This document shows positions 4,568-54,965 of a DNA stretch of 64,000 bases, piece after piece; within the stretch, counting starts at the first letter, position 1; each line of letters starts with the position of its first letter. The notes below the pieces were generated by a model. That model made no database searches. It worked only from the letters and a program-made list of their open reading frames with translations, and was not told where the DNA came from. A program made the position numbers and the translations under genes. Origin of the DNA: Turritopsis dohrnii (taxonomy: Eukaryota; Cnidaria; Hydrozoa; Anthoathecata; Oceaniidae); NCBI GenBank assembly GCA_027922465.2, contig BQMF02000628.1:62001-126000 (forward strand), given 5' to 3'.

Positions 4568-5527
4568 TCAAAAAGCTTTTGGTTTGTTTCTTTTGTTTAT
4601 TTTATTAATATAAACTATTAAAAACGTTAAAAACGCTTTTTTCGCTCTTTTAATGTTAATGAGTGGGATAATATATGACCTGAAAGTACGAAAGTGATTT
4701 CTCAAATATTGAATACAATTTTCCGTCGCCAGAACTTTCACATATTGTATTTCTATGCCTTGAAACTCTTTAGAGAATTGATCAATACGGTATGCCTTCA
4801 AATAATTTTCTAGGTCTAATTTAGTCCTAAATGCAAGCAAAACTGCCGTTCCCGTGTTACCACCGAACATACCTTCTTTATTACGACTGTGTGAATCAAA
4901 TAAATAGTAAGACGAATTATAAAACATGAAAGCCATACCACTTGACCCTGCTAAAACTATCCCACTGTTATAACCTGCTGGTATGTCAATGAAGTTTTGA
5001 CTTTCTGCACAAAGTGACGTGACAATGGGATCCGTGCGTTCAAACTGAATCGCATTGTTTTCAATGTGAATTTGAAGGGGTAATTCTGTAAGATCTAAAA
5101 AGTTATCGACATATCCAAAGCTACTGTATAAATCATTACCGATCTTGAGAATAGCGTCTAGATCATTTTGAGCCCAATAACATAAGGATTTCACTTTTGA
5201 ATAGACTATTGCCGAAAGGGACATAAACATACATTGGGAGCCTGCAGTCCTACCAAAAATCACGGCATTGCCCTGGTGAGTTGAAGCTTTTACTACCTTG
5301 AATATTGTAACCGGACCTGGATTTAATTCTATATCACCCGATTGAAGAAGTATGATAGAAGAGCATAAAACAATTGCTAAAAAGGAGAGAGGTTTTAATA
5401 ATCGTGACATTCCTCCGCTGGAAATCCGGGAACTGATTATTTGATGGCGGTAAATTGAACGGAGATCATATTGCCTATTCCCATTAAAGTTCCCAATTGA
5501 AATACGATACGCTTCGATTGATATCAT
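4568..5527 (-). CDS. 2A-peptide protein with signal-like leader and cysteine-protease-like domain
   Basis: Intact 319-residue ORF. Residues about 45-61 form a hydrophobic segment (LSFLAIVLCSSIILLQ) running straight into SGDIELNPGP (residues 63-72), a full match to the 2A ribosome-skipping motif DxExNPGP; the break is expected between Gly71 and Pro72. The downstream product would be about 248 residues starting at Pro72. It carries FGRTAGSQC (Cys99), WAQNDLDAIL and YLFDSHSRN (Asp211, His213), a spacing and motif set that recalls papain-fold proteases of the OTU/herpesvirus-tegument-USP type found in ORFs of invertebrate mobile elements. 2A motifs are known in non-LTR retrotransposons and in some marine-invertebrate host genes, where they can double as signal sequences. 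Met40 (MSRLLK) is a good alternative start because it gives a compact leader. No reverse transcriptase or transposase ORF is adjacent, so element versus host gene is undecided. The protease assignment is inference. Confidence 0.6.
   Translation of the reverse strand: MISIEAYRISIGNFNGNRQYDLRSIYRHQIISSRISSGGMSRLLKPLSFLAIVLCSSIILLQSGDIELNPGPVTIFKVVKASTHQGNAVIFGRTAGSQCMFMSLSAIVYSKVKSLCYWAQNDLDAILKIGNDLYSSFGYVDNFLDLTELPLQIHIENNAIQFERTDPIVTSLCAESQNFIDIPAGYNSGIVLAGSSGMAFMFYNSSYYLFDSHSRNKEGMFGGNTGTAVLLAFRTKLDLENYLKAYRIDQFSKEFQGIEIQYVKVLATENCIQYLRNHFRTFRSYIIPLINIKRAKKAFLTFLIVYINKINKRNKPKAF
5312..5338 (-). other. 2A ribosome-skipping site GDIELNPGP
   Basis: The nine codons encode GDIELNPGP in frame with the ORF at 4568-5527. 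All residues that define the consensus (D, E, N, P, G, P) are present, preceded by a Leu-rich stretch as in active 2A sequences. Confidence 0.85.
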
Positions 5528-8253: not shown

Positions 8254-11200
8254 AGCTGGAAGGATCTAATGATTATCATTACTTGGCCGGCATATTTCAA
8301 GAGCTTGGTGAAAATGCTTCTGAAAACTTTAATTACTTTCTGAGAAAACAGAAAAATATTCATGCTGATTACACCAAATCATTTCAATCAATTTTAAACG
8401 TGCTCGATCCTTTACAAATCTCCCTTGAAGTTGTGGCAAATTGTTGTTCAAAATTTGATGTTAGTCCAACATGCAAAGGTTTGTTGATGTTTTTTTCTAT
8501 AAGGATTATGAGGCTATTTGATATTACCATGGGGGTTTTGAACTATAAACTTAGTTTCATTTCTAGGGAATGGTTATCGAAGCATAATAAACATTGTTGA
8601 ATCATGCTTGACCAAAGTGTTAGAACTTTCAATAAAAATCCAAGGAAGTCGAGAGAAGCTGTTTTTCCGATCTTACCATTTGTATATGGAGTTGGAATCG
8701 TACACACAAGTTTTGATGCGCCTGTTGACTGTAACAAATTTGACAATTGTGATGTTGGATTATAGTGCTGTAGGCAATCTTTTTCCAGATGAGAAAATTG
8801 TGGAAGATGTCATGTCTGATTTTGAAAAAATCAACCGGGAATGTTTTTATGGACGCAGTTTTGGTTTCCAGGTATGTGGAGTATTGGTGCTTTCCTTGTA
8901 TTGACCACAAAGACCATGGGTATTAATTTCTATTGAACTTTGACAATTCCATGACAGACACTTTTCAACCATGGAAAGTGATTGAAAGATAACACTATTT
9001 TTTAACATAAAAGGATTGTGCAGGGTCTGTGGAAATTTTATATCCATTATTTTTCTGACTAGATTCTTGCTTCACAAAAAAATTCTCTGAATTTTCATTT
9101 TTTCCCAGTGGGTAGATTTGTGGAAAAATCACTGTGAAGGAGTGCATTTCTATGTAAATGTACACCCACTTCAATTAAAATGATCTTAATCACAGTGACT
9201 TTTTAACAATTTAGTCCATTTTTGGGTTCCTTCATATTTGTTTATTTGTTTATTTTAGTATGCAGAATCCATTAGACAATCGTTACAAGTTGTAGCTGTT
9301 GCCATGGCAGCTTACGGTGATGGTTACATTCGACACAATCGTTCGTTTGCTCGTGCTCTATCCTCAATGCTTCACAGTGGAAAATATGTGATTGATCCTG
9401 AACTAAGAGCTAAAAGAATAACTGAGCTGACACAAAATGCTGATATTGAATTTTGTAAAGCCTTTTGGTCACTGACTGAAGAACATGGAGTACAGGTTAG
9501 AGATGGCATCATTATCATAAATGAATTTTGTATCAGTTAGTATATAGAATAATATATGCAGTACTGGATGACCCACAAACATTTTTCTTATCAAATTTGA
9601 TTTTTTGGTGACATGAGTACACTATGTTTTCTTGTGTGATTTTATACTCACACTCTTGTTTATAAAAACTGTTCATTTTTTTCTTAGCATGCTTGTAAAA
9701 TATAGATGACCGCTGATTGTCAAAAATATTAAAGCTTAAAGCTTTCCATGTATGTTGCCAAATAAAGGTGACACCAGTGGTCATGTCGTATTTTGTGATC
9801 AAAACCAAAATAATTTTTTTCAGAAAATTCATGTTTCTTTATCTTCTCAATATTTCAACTCAGCCTTCAAGTGGGCATTCAGTGGTAAAAAAACATGTCC
9901 ATACCATATCAATTGGAAATGTTAACGAAGTTTCTGTATACAGAACCAATGTAACTAAAAAATTGAGCAGTTTTTCGAATGAAACAGTCCAAAATTTATT
10001 TTTAAGTCATCCAAACAATCAGTTTGATCATGTGAGTAGAAAAAATGTTTTTGCTTCGGAACGCAAAAGAAGCAGCCACTTCTAAGAACCAAACTTCAAT
10101 GATAGTACCTGTAGTGTACTCCAACATCGAATAAAGAAATTCATATGAAAGCTTGGTAAGGGGCGTACGACATCTTGAATTTCCTTGCTATGGTGGTTTT
10201 AACTTATATTTAGCATGCACCTTTACTCATGTGTCCAGCGATGGCTGTCAACTTGGAATTTACCATCCCAACCAACTCGTTAAAAATACAGACCATTGAT
10301 GGAAAGGAGTTGAATGTGAAATTTCCTTTTTTGCATTCTGAACAGCGTGGTATTAAAGCTCGTCTGCTGTCTTATGTGTATAGAGAAGGCCAGGTTGGTC
10401 AGCAATCATGCATATCATCTGTATAACTTATTAGTTTCCATTTAATTGCGATTCACTGATAGAAACACTTCACGCTATAGTTGACTTTTTGATAATAGTA
10501 ACTGGCGCATCGCAAGTGCGGAATACTTGGTTTAAGACTGACCCTGTCATAAACACAATTTTTTAGGTTATAATTCATTGCACACACATGCTATGTTATA
10601 AAAACAAAATAAAATCTATAGAATATAGAATATGATTTATGAGATTCATACAACCTAGCAGGCGAAATATTACAGAAGACACTGCGATGAAAAGCATTTT
10701 TATTGAAAGCATTTTTATTGAAAGCATTTTTATTGAAAGCATTTTTATTGAAAGCATTTTCTAATCTATATTTCTGTGGAAATGCACTCCTTCCCAGTGA
10801 TTTTTTCAACGAATTTGTCCACTGGGAGTATACTGACATGAAAGCCTTTTCAGAATTATACTTCAACACATCTTGTCACATCGTGTTTTGGCCTTCTTCA
10901 GTGAGCAATTTGCAGAAATCACTGCGAGGGAGTGCATTTTTATGGAAATATACACACTCAATAAAAATGCTCTTCATCGCAGTGGCTATGGACAATTTTG
11001 CCCGCTGGATCCGTTATCATCTATCAAAAACACACTCCCTCATCTTATTCATGCTCTCCTCCGTGTAGATGTTTGATTCAAATACTGAATCCTCGAAAAC
11101 CATTTCACCGCTTGGACCGAAACCCAGTCCAAAGTCCAGATACTTGATGATACACTGTCATGGAGGTGGCTTTGTTGCACAATCTTCCAAATCACACGAG

Positions 11201-16495: not shown

Positions 16496-16663
16496 AAATC
16501 ACATTTTTCAGAATTCTTCTTCTTATCAGTTTAATTACAAAATTTTAAATATTTATAATTTCTTTATGATTTTTCTTTTTGCTCACCAACGAATAAAATA
16601 TTTTTACATGACTTAGTCATAAATAAACAATTTCTAAAGTGGTAAAGTGTTTTGATACCTTAA

Positions 16664-17042
16664 GGGAAGAAATTTTCGCGGGAAAAAATTTTCGCGGAAT
16701 TTAATTTCGCGGTTGAAATGGTAAAAATGGCCGATTTTCGCGGAATTTAATTTCGCGATTGACCAATTTTAACATGTTTCGCGGAATTAAATTTCGCAGT
16801 TTTCGATTTTCAAACAAATACTTAACAGAAAAAATGCCTCCTTTTTTGCGTTGTAAATCGTTTTTTCTTTTATTATTTAATATATAAAGTTAAAATCGAA
16901 TTTTCGCGGAATTTAATTTCGCGATTGAGCAATTTTGACGTGTTTCGCGGAATTTAATTTCGCGGTTAGGGGCAAAAATCGCGAAATTAAATTCCGCGAA
17001 AATTTCTTCCGCGAAAATTTCTTCCCGCGAAAATTTCTTCCC
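16664..17042. mobile_element. TTAA-flanked MITE with TTTCGCGGAATTTAA modules (379 bp)
   Basis: Left end GGGAAGAAATTTTCGCGG and right end its complement, each bordered by TTAA (16660-16663; 17043-17046), the duplication typical of piggyBac-type elements. The interior repeats TTTCGCGGAATTTAATTTCG. Confidence 0.85.
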
Positions 17043-17164
17043 TTAAGGTAAATAATATTAACGCTTGCTTTCATGATGTTCATTGTTTATTCTTTACGCT
17101 CTAAAGGGATTCTCAACCCTTTTGTAAACAGATTGGACGTTTTTAGTAGCCCCACTTATTCCAG

Positions 17165-28336: not shown

Positions 28337-30703
28337 GTTAGTGTTTTTTACACTTTGGCTAAAAACGTGAAAATTTGGAAAACTTTTTTGAATCTAAATT
28401 TTAGACAGCAAGTTAGGATTTTTTTCAAAATCTATTGGCTGTATTAGGAAGAGAAAAGATTGAAGATTCCATCCCTTTTTAAATGAGCTCTACAACTTTT
28501 TTCCAGCTAAAAGTAATGACTCTTCAAACTTTGGAGCAGTTAATCATAAATTTATTCCATCAGACAGATGGAAGAAATATTCCATCATTAATAACCTTTG
28601 GAGTTTTTAAGCTTTTGGGCTAAAATTTTGCAGGCGAAATCCCGTCGGCGTTCTCTACCGATGAAAGGAAGAATTATTCCATTTGGAGCTATTCTGGAAG
28701 AGTTATTCCATTTTTTCGGTTGAAAAATCTCCAGCTTTAATCCAAATTTAGTTCGGTTTTTCTTGATGAATTGATTTCAAGAAAACAATCGTTCAATCTC
28801 AAACACCCCTAGTTTTTGATTTTGAACGTTTTGTTGAAAATGGAGCATGTTAGGATTCCACATTTCATTTTTCGCACAGCCTCTTTTCTCGACACTAATA
28901 TTTAATGAGTTAAATTAAAAACGTTACATTCTTGACTTATCTTTTTCTAAAGGATACTTAATCGATCCCTGATCTAGAAAAAAGCATGCTTTATCATTAG
29001 AGTTAAAAATAAATCGACTTGGAGCTCTCTGGAATGAGATATTCCAAATTTACAAGAAATTATGTGTATTACGAATGGAATCATTCATCCAAAATGACTC
29101 ACTATTTTCGAATGATTTCATCAAATCCTCTAGAAAGGAAGGTTAAATAATTACTTGATAAAGCGCTACATGTAATAGAGAGCTTATTAAGAACGATATA
29201 TTCCATTTAGTTCTTACGCAAAAAAAAAATTAAAATACTTCAACGTAAAGTGCGTTTCTGCCCAACTCCGTTATTTCTCTTGTCACAGGCTCTAAATTTC
29301 AGTCAAAAGTGCTCCTTTTTACACACCTGTTTTCTTAATATGATTCGGAAACCTTTCATGGAAAAACGTTTGAAATTAGGAGCATGTTAAGATTGTTTAT
29401 TCCATAAAATACCAAAATAATCTAATTTGGCAGTTGACATTGGAATATGAAATTTATCTTGCCTGGGGAAACTGGGAAACTTCAACTCAATATTTTAACA
29501 ATTCAACTTTTCATTCCTTATATACGTACAAATAGAGCACCTCATAATGGTTAAATTCCAAGTGTCACCCTAAATAAATTCCACCAGTGCCATCTCAAAT
29601 GAATGAAGAAAATTCCTCCATTGCACTGATGCTCAAGAAACATAAATTACAAGAAATTTGATATCTTGCAAGAGGATGGTCCTTATCAGCCCTGATGAAA
29701 TCAATGATACCTATGTTGAAATCAATGAGAACATGATGCTCGATGCAACCATGTACAATGCCCTTATTCGGAAGGCACTTTCATAATAAGTTGATAAAAA
29801 CATTTAGTTTATATTTTTCACTATTCGGTGTTTAAATTTGTTAGGATTTAACCTCGTTATTTTTCTTAGCATTGTAGAACTAGGAAAACCTAAGAAAATG
29901 GAATATTTCATCCTTCTAGACTCTTGAAATACCTTATTCTGGAATGAGAAAGCATCTCTTGAAGGTTAGAACTAAAAAAACTGAGCTTATTTGCTGAAAG
30001 TAGTCGGAAAAAAGTCGTAAGAAGCTACTTTGGTTTACGGTTTATAGTTTTTATTATTTCCTTGGAATATTAATTCTTATTAGCTCTTTTAATAATGTCA
30101 TTAACGTTCAAGATTACTATTTGTTACAATTACCTTTATATGTTTATGATTTCATGCACCAATATTCTTTGTTCTATAATTAATCTAGTTGAATATATTT
30201 TGCTTTCACAGTGCAAGTTAAAAATGGAATTTAAAATACTCATTGACTCGATAAAAGTTGGGGTTTCATTATTAACACTTTCTAGGGTAATTTTATACAA
30301 CCTTCACATATTTTCGATGCTATAGAATGTAAAAACATTTGACTAAAAACCTTAAAACCTTGCCTTTAGCTTTAGCTAAATTTTATGATGGAATACGCAA
30401 TAAAAAAGTGCTCCTCGCATATGTTTTTCAAAATTCAGGGATAAAGGTATGAGAAAATCTTATTTAGAACCTTAGAATTTGAATGTATCAATTTCAAACA
30501 AGAAAAACACAAATTCTGATATTTTGAAATATCTAATCCTTTTTTACTCGGGGAAAAAGTTTCAGCGCATTTGAAGTTATAATTAGCAACTTTTTGGAAG
30601 TTTTCATCCTCAAACACTCAATAATCGTGATTTGAGACTGAAAAAACCATTTTTGAAGAAAATTTGCTCTCACGTTTTTGGCCAAAGTGTAAAAAACACT
30701 AAC
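28337..30703. mobile_element. 2.37-kb TIR element, TTAT duplications
   Basis: Left end GTTAGTGTTTTTTACACTTTGGC and right end its complement extend pairing for more than 35 bp, with flanking TTAT on both sides (28333-28336; 30704-30707). The interior has many 'ATTCCA' motifs and no transposase ORF, so it is a non-autonomous element. It sits inside the decayed sequence 27.7-31.8 kb. Confidence 0.75.
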
Positions 30704-47715: not shown

Positions 47716-47722
47716 GAAATTA

Positions 47723-48407
47723 AAGTCTGTCTCAATATAATTGGCAGTGGAAAAGTTGGAGATTTGATGTTTCGCATAAAATCGCTACTGAGTGGTACTT
47801 CGTGTCCCATATCTTCTGAACGACCCATTGGTTTGCCCTCAAACTTTATAACTTTCTTTGCCTAAGGCAGGGCTACCACTGGTGCAGAAATGAAAGTTAT
47901 AGCTTAAGTAGAAAAAAGGCTTTATTTTTTAAATCGCAAATTTAACCGCTAAAAATCGCGAATTTTTCAACCAAAAATATATAGATGAGTTTCTAAGTGA
48001 CGTGATGTTTATAAACATTAGTGTTTTTTGCTCGATAATTGCTGTGAGTTTCAACATAAATGCTTAATAGATCAAGTCAATTTCCTACCAATATGCGCAC
48101 GCATCTTGGTTGGCAATTAGATGCTCTCTGCACACTGAAGGTTAAACCGGTTCTCAGGAGGCGTTTTTAAGACAAAAAAAATTAATAAAAATAATACTCA
48201 TTAGCACTCGAAATCTATTTTTGTGAAGTTTATTAAATTTTTAGTTTAAACAGATCTTTAACTGGTAATTAACATCAGAAACTCATCTATTCAAATATAG
48301 TGCTTTTAATTATCTAAAACATGCAAAAAAACTTTTTGGAATCGGAAGTGGCTATCAAAAGTTATGAGGTAATTTGTTTCCACTGCCAATTATATTGAGA
48401 CAGACTT
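47723..48407. mobile_element. 685-bp Tc1/mariner-type MITE, TA duplications
   Basis: AAGTCTGTCTCAATATAATT starts a perfect terminal inverted repeat of about 31 bp, and both ends are bordered by TA. No transposase ORF. Confidence 0.9.
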
Positions 48408-48852
48408 TAGCAATGTTTATTATATAAACACTGACATAAAGCCCAGCTTACACTATGATAACACCTTTTCAGGGGATGAAATGCTGTCTCTGTTGAATTA
48501 AGAGTTTCCATTTTTCAGTTATCTCCATAATGTTTCATACAAGTACCAAAATACAACGAGAGATATGATCATTAAGAAATATCTCAATAGAAAAATGGAA
48601 AAAGAAACACGTTTGATGAATAAAAATGATATTCTCAATGACACAATGTGCAAATCCCACATCAAGTAATTATTGATTATTGAATTCAAGTAAACGCCAC
48701 CCTCTACAGTTTGCAATAAACGCCACGGCAAAAAATATGCAAACGAAACGTTGACAAACGGGGCGTATAAGGGCGTCCTTGAGCTACTGAACAGAAAGAA
48801 AACCTTATCCCTGGGTTTGAGTCACCATTTTAGCAATATTTTTAGATTTCTT

Positions 48853-48935
48853 GTCAGAAGTGGGATTCGAACCCACGCCTACGAAAGTAGACTGCGACCT
48901 GAACGCAGCGCCTTAGACCACTCGGCCATCCTGAC
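48853..48935 (-). tRNA. tRNA-Leu (anticodon CAG)
   Basis: The minus strand starts GTCAGGATGGCCGAGTGG (A box) and ends TTCTGAC. The acceptor stem GTCAGGA/TTCTGAC has seven pairs with one G-T. The anticodon arm is CTGCG-TTCAGGT-CGCAG, giving CAG. A variable arm (class II) follows, then GGGTTCGAATCCC (B box). 83 nt, no intron, normal for tRNA-Leu. CCA is not encoded. Confidence 0.95.
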
Positions 48936-48939
48936 ATAC

Positions 48940-53238: not shown

Positions 53239-54965
53239 ATGAAGATGAACTCATCAAATAACCATCTCTTTTTAAATGTTAAAATGAAAAGTAAGAATCT
53301 AGGATTAATTTTCAGTGTTGTTTTACCACTATTTCTCTCGATTTCAATCATACTGGATGGAAGCATCGTTATTATGATAGCTTTAAGGTGTGAGTAAGGG
53401 AAAAATCATTGACTTTTTTGAAAAAAAGTTTTTTTGCACATCAGGATGAAAGGAACTCTGAATTTTCCAATGGTGAAACTATTTTTTCAGGAAGTGGATG
53501 GGAAGTCCGTTTATTTTCCAAAACCGTTGTATTAGCGGCTAATTTGTGTACATTAAAGACCATGAAAAAACAAAACATATTGATCATGTTGCGTATTGAT
53601 CCTTTTGTTTCAAAATTCCGTTTCATAAATAATTAATAAGTTCACGCAATAAAGAAAAATCTTTAAAGCTATTTTTTTCAGTGTTCACTTTTCGTGTCAG
53701 AGCCACTAACGTTTGATGCTTCATTTACAAAACTAAAAAAGCTCTGACAGTGAGACTTGGCTTACTGAAAAGCTGAAGGGTAGATCTAAAAACGGTTTTT
53801 TTTTTATCTTTTTAATTTGAACAGAATATGAGTTATAGTCTTGAAAGCAAAAAAAATGAAAACAGAAAACGATACTTTTGAAAAATTGAAAATAACTCTG
53901 AAAATAATTTGTTTGAGTAAAAACAGAAAAAACCGTTTTTTACTCTATCTCTTGTGATTACAAAAGTGTAAAAAACATAAGTTAAACTTAACTCGTTTTG
54001 TAAATGGAGCTACGTTTTTACAACAAGGTTCATTTTCTTTGACTCGTTCTAAAATCTAACATTTTTAGTTTACCTTAAAATTTTTAACATGGGCTTTTAG
54101 AGATGTAAATAAGCTTTCCAAAAATGTATCATACTTGATATAAACATATTCCTGTCAAAGGAATTAATTAAAAAACAAAAACACGTTTTTTTCCCTTACT
54201 CACACCTTAAAAAGAACACTGCACAATAAAAGAATGGTGATGATAGCCTACTTATGTCTTCTCGATATCTTGGACAGTTTCACAGGGTTAGTGTCACGCT
54301 TTTCTCTCAAAGTGGAGACGCAAAACAATCTACGAGTTGTCATTCAAACCTTGTCTATAGCATCCATCTTTCTAACTCTGGTCTTGCTTATTGAACGGTA
54401 CATCAACATTGTTTATCCCTTCAAGTATTATGCTTGGGTTACACAACGAATGTTCCGATGCAGTTTATTATTACCATGGTTACCAGCAATAGTCATGTTG
54501 ACAGTGCACGTTTCACAGGACAGAAATTTGGATAATCGCAACTATTTGATATCAGTTGGTACAGTTTGGGTGATATTATCCGTTATGTATACTGCTATTG
54601 TTCTTAATGTTAGTGGGCGAATTAAAACTGTCGTTAAGGAACATAAAAAAGCTATTTCCTCGCGAAGAAACACCTTTGGTGCTGAACAGGAAAAACTAAA
54701 CTTACGGAGCCGAGCAAAAAAAACAGTAAATGAAGTGTTGCATCTGAGCTATCTGACCATGTTTTTCGTCGGTGCGCTTGGCTGGAGTATGTTTTTGCTT
54801 GGTTTTACCATGAATGACAAAATTGCTAATGTGGCAGCAACTTTCTTTGCTATTTATCTGTTTACCAACCCATTAATGGTTCTGTTGACACAGTCTGAAA
54901 TTAGGAAAGAAATCCGAAAATCACTGCATGTGATATGGACGCGAAGTCGGGTTTTTTCTTCATAA
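53239..54965 (+). CDS. Class-A (rhodopsin-like) G-protein-coupled receptor
   Basis: Two exons, 53239-53397 by sequence but spliced at 53387 (donor AG|GTGTGAG), and 54215-54965 (TAA); 299 residues. TM1 is LGLIFSVVLPLFLSISIILD with IVIMIALR, TM2 MVMIAYLCLLDILDSF, TM3 ends with the DRY-type motif ERYINIVYPF, TM4 LLLPWLPAIVMLTV, TM5 LISVGTVWVILSVMYTAIVL, TM6 YLTMFFVGALGWSMFLLGF, TM7 AIYLFTNPLMVLL (NPxxY lacks Tyr). The usual GN of TM1 is DG. N-terminus and C-tail are short. Ligand cannot be told; it belongs with the many small orphan receptors of cnidarians, which are often intronless. Its single intron is the element at 53387-54206; joining phase 2 (AG) to A gives Arg and keeps the frame from TM1 into TM2. 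Confidence 0.8.
53387..54206. mobile_element. TTAA-flanked TIR element forming the GPCR intron (820 bp)
   Basis: Left end GGTGTGAGTAAGGGAAAAA, right end its exact complement TTTTTCCCTTACTCACACC, bordered by TTAA at 53383-53386 and 54207-54210. No transposase. The donor GT is the second and third base of the left TIR, and the acceptor AG (54213-54214) is in the host sequence just past the right TTAA. Type by target site: piggyBac-like MITE. Confidence 0.85.

Follow-up and report, generated by a model that had tools for sequence, protein, structure and literature searches.

A TTAA-flanked DNA transposon within a receptor gene of Turritopsis dohrnii: a candidate transposon-made intron

Single transposon insertions can reportedly behave as introns: going by their titles, studies of maize Ds and C. 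elegans Tc1 are said to describe a transposon that is spliced from the message or makes a new intron. Transposon insertion is one of the mechanisms of intron gain listed in a 2012 review (PMC3443670), the available part of which tabulates 35 events, from Oryza, Drosophila, Oikopleura and Zea, and counts none of its tabulated transposon intron gains as shown in vivo. Introners have since been surveyed across eukaryotes, and many are non-autonomous DNA elements that carry a target-site duplication (TSD), terminal inverted repeats (TIRs) or both and lie in coding sequence (Gozashti et al. 2022, PMC9860276). In the excerpt available, that study defines introners as families of at least four similar introns, has their splice sites supplied by the element, the TSD or the host, describes some insertions that add or delete neighboring codons, and reports introners in only two animal groups. 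The introner elements of Amoebophrya, a dinoflagellate parasite, are described in part of another paper (PMC7789003) as having inverted repeats at the intron ends, capable of folding into a hairpin that brings the exon boundaries together, and direct repeats over the exon/intron borders; they make up many repeated, often non-canonical introns.

We analyzed a window of 64,000 nucleotides from the hydrozoan Turritopsis dohrnii (contig BQMF02000628.1, positions 62,001 to 126,000; coordinates below are those of the window), in which an 820-bp element interrupts the predicted coding sequence of a GPCR. As with Ds and Tc1, a single transposon insertion would serve as the intron; those cases are reported as observed, whereas the present one is predicted from DNA. 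As in the introners of the Gozashti et al. excerpt, an element with TIRs and a TSD lies in coding sequence, the predicted splice sites come from element, TSD and host, and a codon is lost; unlike those families, this element has no second copy in the window and its splicing is a prediction. It shares with the Amoebophrya elements, so far as the excerpt describes them, inverted ends that can pair and direct repeats at the borders, but there the introns are many and here a single GT-AG intron is predicted. We regard the case as a well-preserved candidate of a known kind, the transposon-made intron. A Kolobok-type introner was absent among the literature matches listed, which comprised titles and the starts of abstracts, and one may still exist in print.

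The element and its superfamily

The element and its flanks consist of the following features.

53383 to 53386, no strand: left TTAA target-site copy, from sequence reading
53387 to 54206, no strand: non-autonomous DNA transposon, 820 bp, with exact 19-bp terminal inverted repeats
53387 to 53405, plus strand: left TIR, GGTGTGAGTAAGGGAAAAA, from the inverted-repeat search
54188 to 54206, minus strand: right TIR, the exact complement of the left TIR, from the inverted-repeat search
54207 to 54210, no strand: right TTAA target-site copy, from sequence reading

In full, the inverted arms are 24 nt long (53382-53405 and 54188-54211) and 100% complementary. Since the outer five bases of the arms are the TTAA and one matching base, the element proper is taken to be 820 bp with 19-bp ends, and its end sequence is TTAAGGTGTGAGTAAGGG. 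It thus has the TIRs and the flanking target-site duplication of a DNA transposon. Because TTAA is palindromic, a TA duplication with one extra TIR base is also possible; the empty site is identical under either. Inside the element an 80-codon open stretch (53394-53633) gave no Pfam match at E 0.1.

Chance formation of the inverted pair at 53387-54206 was rejected, since an exact non-simple pair of at least 19 nt within 3 kb appeared in just one of 100 dinucleotide shuffles. The real window holds 11 such pairs, the element's included and several of them overlapping at 16656-17050, from which we judge the window rich in mobile DNA. When its 574 TTAA sites were paired at spacings of 60-3000 bases, two pairs bounded a perfect 16-nt inverted end, one being the 820-bp element and the other 16660-17046. 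No second copy of the TIR tip (14 bases, up to two mismatches) was found elsewhere in the window, nor, by sensitive blastn, one of the whole element, all matches being of 31 bases or fewer. Viral and prokaryote collections, where such copies are hardly to be expected, contained no exact 18-base match to the TTAA plus TIR tip.

Kolobok elements are described, in the part of the source available, as having TTAA duplications and ends of the form 5'-RR...YY-3', unlike piggyBac (PMC9587614), and the 820-bp element, with TTAA and GG...CC ends, has this form. No transposase was found in our element, the one open stretch scanned giving no Pfam match. T2-MITEs carry a terminal AGGRR at TTAA, according to an excerpt of their description (PMC6004289); the element reads AGGTG, one base off that motif. 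The coral CMITEs, as excerpted (PMC2872659), are about 100 bp long, with a TTAA duplication, short TIRs, no coding capacity and the piggyBac motif CC[C/T]T. Our element resembles these and other piggyBac-type MITEs in the TTAA target-site duplication, short TIRs and lack of coding capacity, and differs in its 820-bp length and in starting GGTG instead of CC[C/T]T. On that terminal motif we rejected piggyBac membership; as read from its ends, the element is a better fit to Kolobok than to piggyBac.

Other repeats and genes were noted in the window. The inverted-repeat element at 16656-17050 measures 395 bp; its exact ends are 29 nt long (TACCTTAAGGGAAGAAATTTTCGCGGGAA), and repeats such as ATTTTCGCGGAATTTAATTTCGCG occur inside it. 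It was considered as a T2-MITE and dropped, and it is not counted as support for the 820-bp element: its repeats extend beyond the TTAA (TACCTTAAGGG), which makes a TA duplication more likely than a TTAA one. A 2367-bp segment at 28337-30703 has 23-nt exact inverted ends and may have a TTAT duplication, and a 689-bp segment at 47721-48409 has the longest exact inverted pair within 3 kb in the window, 33 nt. On the minus strand, 4568-5527 is a 319-aa ORF matching Pfam Herpes_teg_N (E 4.3e-10) and containing GDIELNPGP, which we take to be a 2A-like motif; with seven relatives found, the best 71% identical, it is perhaps a mobile-element protein. A tRNA-Leu (CAG) gene lies at 48851-48936, also on the minus strand.

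The interrupted receptor gene

Two pieces of coding sequence flank the element and its target-site copies.

53239 to 53386, plus strand: upstream coding piece, N-terminus and helix 1 of a GPCR, 49 codons plus one base, starting at the ATG and ending with the first TTAA
54211 to 54965, plus strand: downstream coding piece with the stop, intracellular loop 1 and helices 2-7 with ERY and NP motifs, from Pfam and PDB matches

In-frame stops lie just 5' of the ATG at 53239. The upstream piece contains a 19-aa stretch with a mean hydropathy of 2.65 (best 21-aa mean 2.46), and when 186 other open stretches of 49 codons starting with ATG were taken from the window, only one had so high a best 21-aa mean. 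The 251 downstream codons contain no stop, and ERY after helix 3, a Trp in helix 4 and NP in helix 7 can be read from them. In the product of splicing from the boundary donor (donor A below), hydropathy gives one peak upstream and six peak groups downstream, seven groups in all. Pfam 7tm_1 matches the downstream piece (scanned 54213-54962) at E 1.4e-5 and 25.1 bits, short of the curated threshold of 30.5, and adrenergic receptors match in a phmmer search of PDB at E about 1e-4. The gene thus has the seven helices and signature motifs of class A, though with a 7tm_1 score under the cut-off, and by these features the host gene is a divergent class A GPCR. No relatives were found at E 0.001 among 1387 candidates drawn from 5.8 billion predicted proteins, in collections of a sort that is probably poor in animal genes; among viral contigs 29 stretches fitted a pattern and none encoded a relative.

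When the element and one TTAA are removed, a 300-codon ORF runs from the ATG at 53239 to the TAA at 54963, and the empty site GCTTTAAAAAGAACACTG reads A-L-K-R-T-L in frame. Among the 45 inverted pairs in the window, only that of the 820-bp element leaves, on excision, an ORF to which both flanks contribute 49 codons or more; for the runner-up the figure is 35. Aligned with the alpha-1A receptor, the empty-site protein is ungapped over the junction and matches from residue 24 with 25.4 bits, whereas the form spliced from donor A starts at residue 50 (23.5 bits) and that from a second donor, C, at residue 35 (24.2 bits). By hand count on this alignment, the residue aligned with the GN asparagine of helix 1 lies 28 from the helix-2 Asp in both proteins.

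These results bear on the idea that the upstream piece is foreign to the gene and the joined frame an accident. The Pfam score does lend it something: no gain came from adding helix 1, the downstream piece alone scoring 25.1 bits, the empty-site form 23.7, the donor-C form 22.7 and the donor-A form 22.6. Several PDB scores likewise fail to rise, since the empty-site form loses 1.1 bits relative to the downstream piece alone against 7f4d (melanocortin-1; 20.5 vs 21.6) and 2.5 bits against 8jj8 (beta-2; 22.1 vs 24.6), while against 8thk (alpha-1A) it gains 0.8 (25.4 vs 24.6). Against an accident, the upstream piece provides precisely the missing first helix, none of the 44 other inverted pairs joins two pieces alike and the alpha-1A alignment crosses the junction without a gap. 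With a single pair in 45 giving such a join, we consider a chance union of the two pieces very improbable.

GPCR genes can carry introns in the region of helix 1 and loop 1, so an older intron might already have been present, the transposon landing in it or replacing it. We give this next to no weight: each TTAA copy borders directly on coding sequence, no remnant of an intron lies beyond the element, and the joined flanks keep both the frame and the canonical spacing.

Very probably, then, a DNA transposon was inserted into a GPCR exon, as argued by the exact TIRs and TTAA copies, the join test, the ungapped alignment and the division of the receptor into helix 1 upstream and helices 2-7 downstream. 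The first-pass annotation had described an 820-bp element bounded by TTAA and ending in exact inverted repeats of 19 bp, and the repeat search and coordinates agree. Its reading of an open in-frame empty site, A-L-K-R-T-L, is borne out by the 300-aa frame across the junction, and the insertion it proposed into a continuous GPCR frame is well supported by the TIRs, that frame, the hydropathy, the ungapped alignment and the join test. Its further claim, that the ancestral gene was probably intronless at the insertion point, is established as far as one sequence allows, the empty site being in frame.

Predicted splice sites

Candidate splice sites were ranked among all GT and AG sites in the window with a vertebrate-like matrix.

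53388 to 53389, plus strand: predicted donor A, AAG/GTGTGA, formed from the TSD and the TIR tip; rank 32 of 3349 GT sites, top 1%
53394 to 53395, plus strand: alternative donor C, TGA/GTAAGG, in frame with 54214 and adding C-E; rank 259 of 3349
53395 to 53397, plus strand: in-frame TAA, reached at once if the element is retained in the message, from frame reading
54213 to 54214, plus strand: predicted acceptor AG in host sequence, AAAAAG/AACACTG; top 25% of 3300 AG sites

Donor B (53390, GTGAGT) ranks 85 of 3349 by the same matrix, in which a GT at 53291 also scores above donor C. The predicted acceptor closes an AAAAAG at 54209-54214. Twelve AGs are listed in 54090-54330 and six of them score above it; better-scoring AGs in the coding region are 54285 (top 2.4%), 54277 (top 4%) and 54312 (top 5.6%). 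The predicted intron, 53388-54214, leaves out the first base of the element and takes in 8 bases beyond its right end. Both predicted splice sites thus lie only a few bases from the ends of the element, as they do in introners.

The window also offers a useful source of real splice sites of the host species in two exons at 8542-9537 with HSL_N of hormone-sensitive lipase (E 2.6e-27 and 2.3e-28), presumably an animal family. That gene may extend to about 13557, where there is a weak alpha/beta hydrolase match below cut-off.

Four donors were combined with nine acceptors and the frame read through each junction; acceptors 54291, 54312 and 54317 were scored but lie outside the nine. Donor A or C with acceptor 54214 keeps the whole downstream frame. 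With 54232 or 54277 these two donors leave the frame open, but part of loop 1 and helix 2 is deleted. Donor B was rejected, for when joined to 54214 it yields only 50 aa before a stop, and with 54246 or 54285 it is open but again at some cost to loop 1 and helix 2. The GT at 53291 was also set aside, being open only with 54246 and 54285 among the nine acceptors and at the expense of helix 1 and 2 sequence, as were the upstream acceptors 54100, 54102, 54113 and 54160, which run into a stop whichever of donors A, B or C is used. All remaining acceptor combinations with these three donors stop.

A control inserted the element in silico at 33 TTAA sites within ORFs of the window. Donor A with the first AG kept the frame at six of these, the real site included, and four of the six lie in the receptor gene itself; donor C kept it at 4/33, and any of the three donors at 24/33. 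Frame preservation is therefore little evidence, and we rejected it as a proof of splicing.

Folding of 53360-54240 as RNA pairs the TIRs in one stem (z -5.46 vs 20 shuffles), which brings the exon ends together yet covers the donor.

The annotation's donor, made by the TTAA and the TIR tip, stands: AAG/GTGTGA is present and scores strongly. Of its acceptor, the AAAAAG in the exon is there, while its quality falls short, at only the top 25% of 3300 AG sites. The predicted cost of splicing, one Lys codon, is confirmed in silico, the junction 53387/54215 giving 299 aa, one Lys below the 300-aa empty-site form.

New intron or recent insertion

The proposed course of events is as follows. A non-autonomous, TTAA-targeting, Kolobok-like transposon would have landed in the coding sequence of a class A GPCR gene with no intron at that point. 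The TTAA with the TIR tip, TTAAG/GTGTGAG, would make a good donor in any target, and the complementary right TIR would give a pyrimidine-rich stretch with the branch-point-like CTTAC and CTCAC. The host AG 8 bases beyond the element would serve as acceptor, and splicing from 53387 to 54215 would shorten intracellular loop 1 of the receptor by one Lys. Such an intron would be young and probably leaky. That the element is spliced in this way, or through donor C, is quite possible on the DNA sequence, and we place the prospect just short of even. Thus, of the annotation's central claim, a GPCR intron made by a TTAA transposon, the insertion holds, and the spliced intron is plausible from the sequence, with a strong donor and a mediocre acceptor. 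Its description of 53388-54214 as the only intron of the receptor is a prediction.

A serious rival is a genuine insertion that took place recently and is not usefully spliced. The assembly would then have caught by chance a null or low-function allele, which might be polymorphic or heterozygous. The intact frames on both sides would then mean that too little time has passed since insertion. The TIRs are still identical, the unspliced message runs into its stop inside the element at 53395, the acceptor is weak with better AGs nearby, and the stem covers the donor; all of this suits such an allele. What speaks for the spliced intron instead is a good donor at the boundary together with a frame-keeping AG 8 nt past the element, as selection would favor, although the combination is not rare. 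We hold the null or polymorphic insertion to be possible, if doubtful.

The pairing of the ends allows another route. DNA transposons are said to be removed from animal mRNAs by end pairing, cutting and ligation, a process called SOS splicing, and this element might leave its message by a similar cut-and-ligate reaction independent of the spliceosome. In its favor, the ends are perfectly complementary over 24 bp and the fold juxtaposes both exon ends. A good GT donor is nevertheless present, and ordinary splicing could suffice; we think the spliceosome-independent route unlikely.

The origin of new introns in animals is thinly documented, case by case. The spliced intron proposed here would add a case with an insertion preserved well enough that its target duplication, both TIRs and the empty site are still readable. 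A larger and rather speculative idea, which we put forward with little confidence, is that many genes of this animal owe introns, in either orientation, to a Kolobok-like MITE family with TTAA as its target, which would be a new animal introner family. Its ends would bring a ready donor, TTAAG/GTGTGAG, and, in complementary form, a run of pyrimidines containing branch-point-like motifs. Were the element present in many copies, these symmetric ends would allow introns to arise in both orientations.
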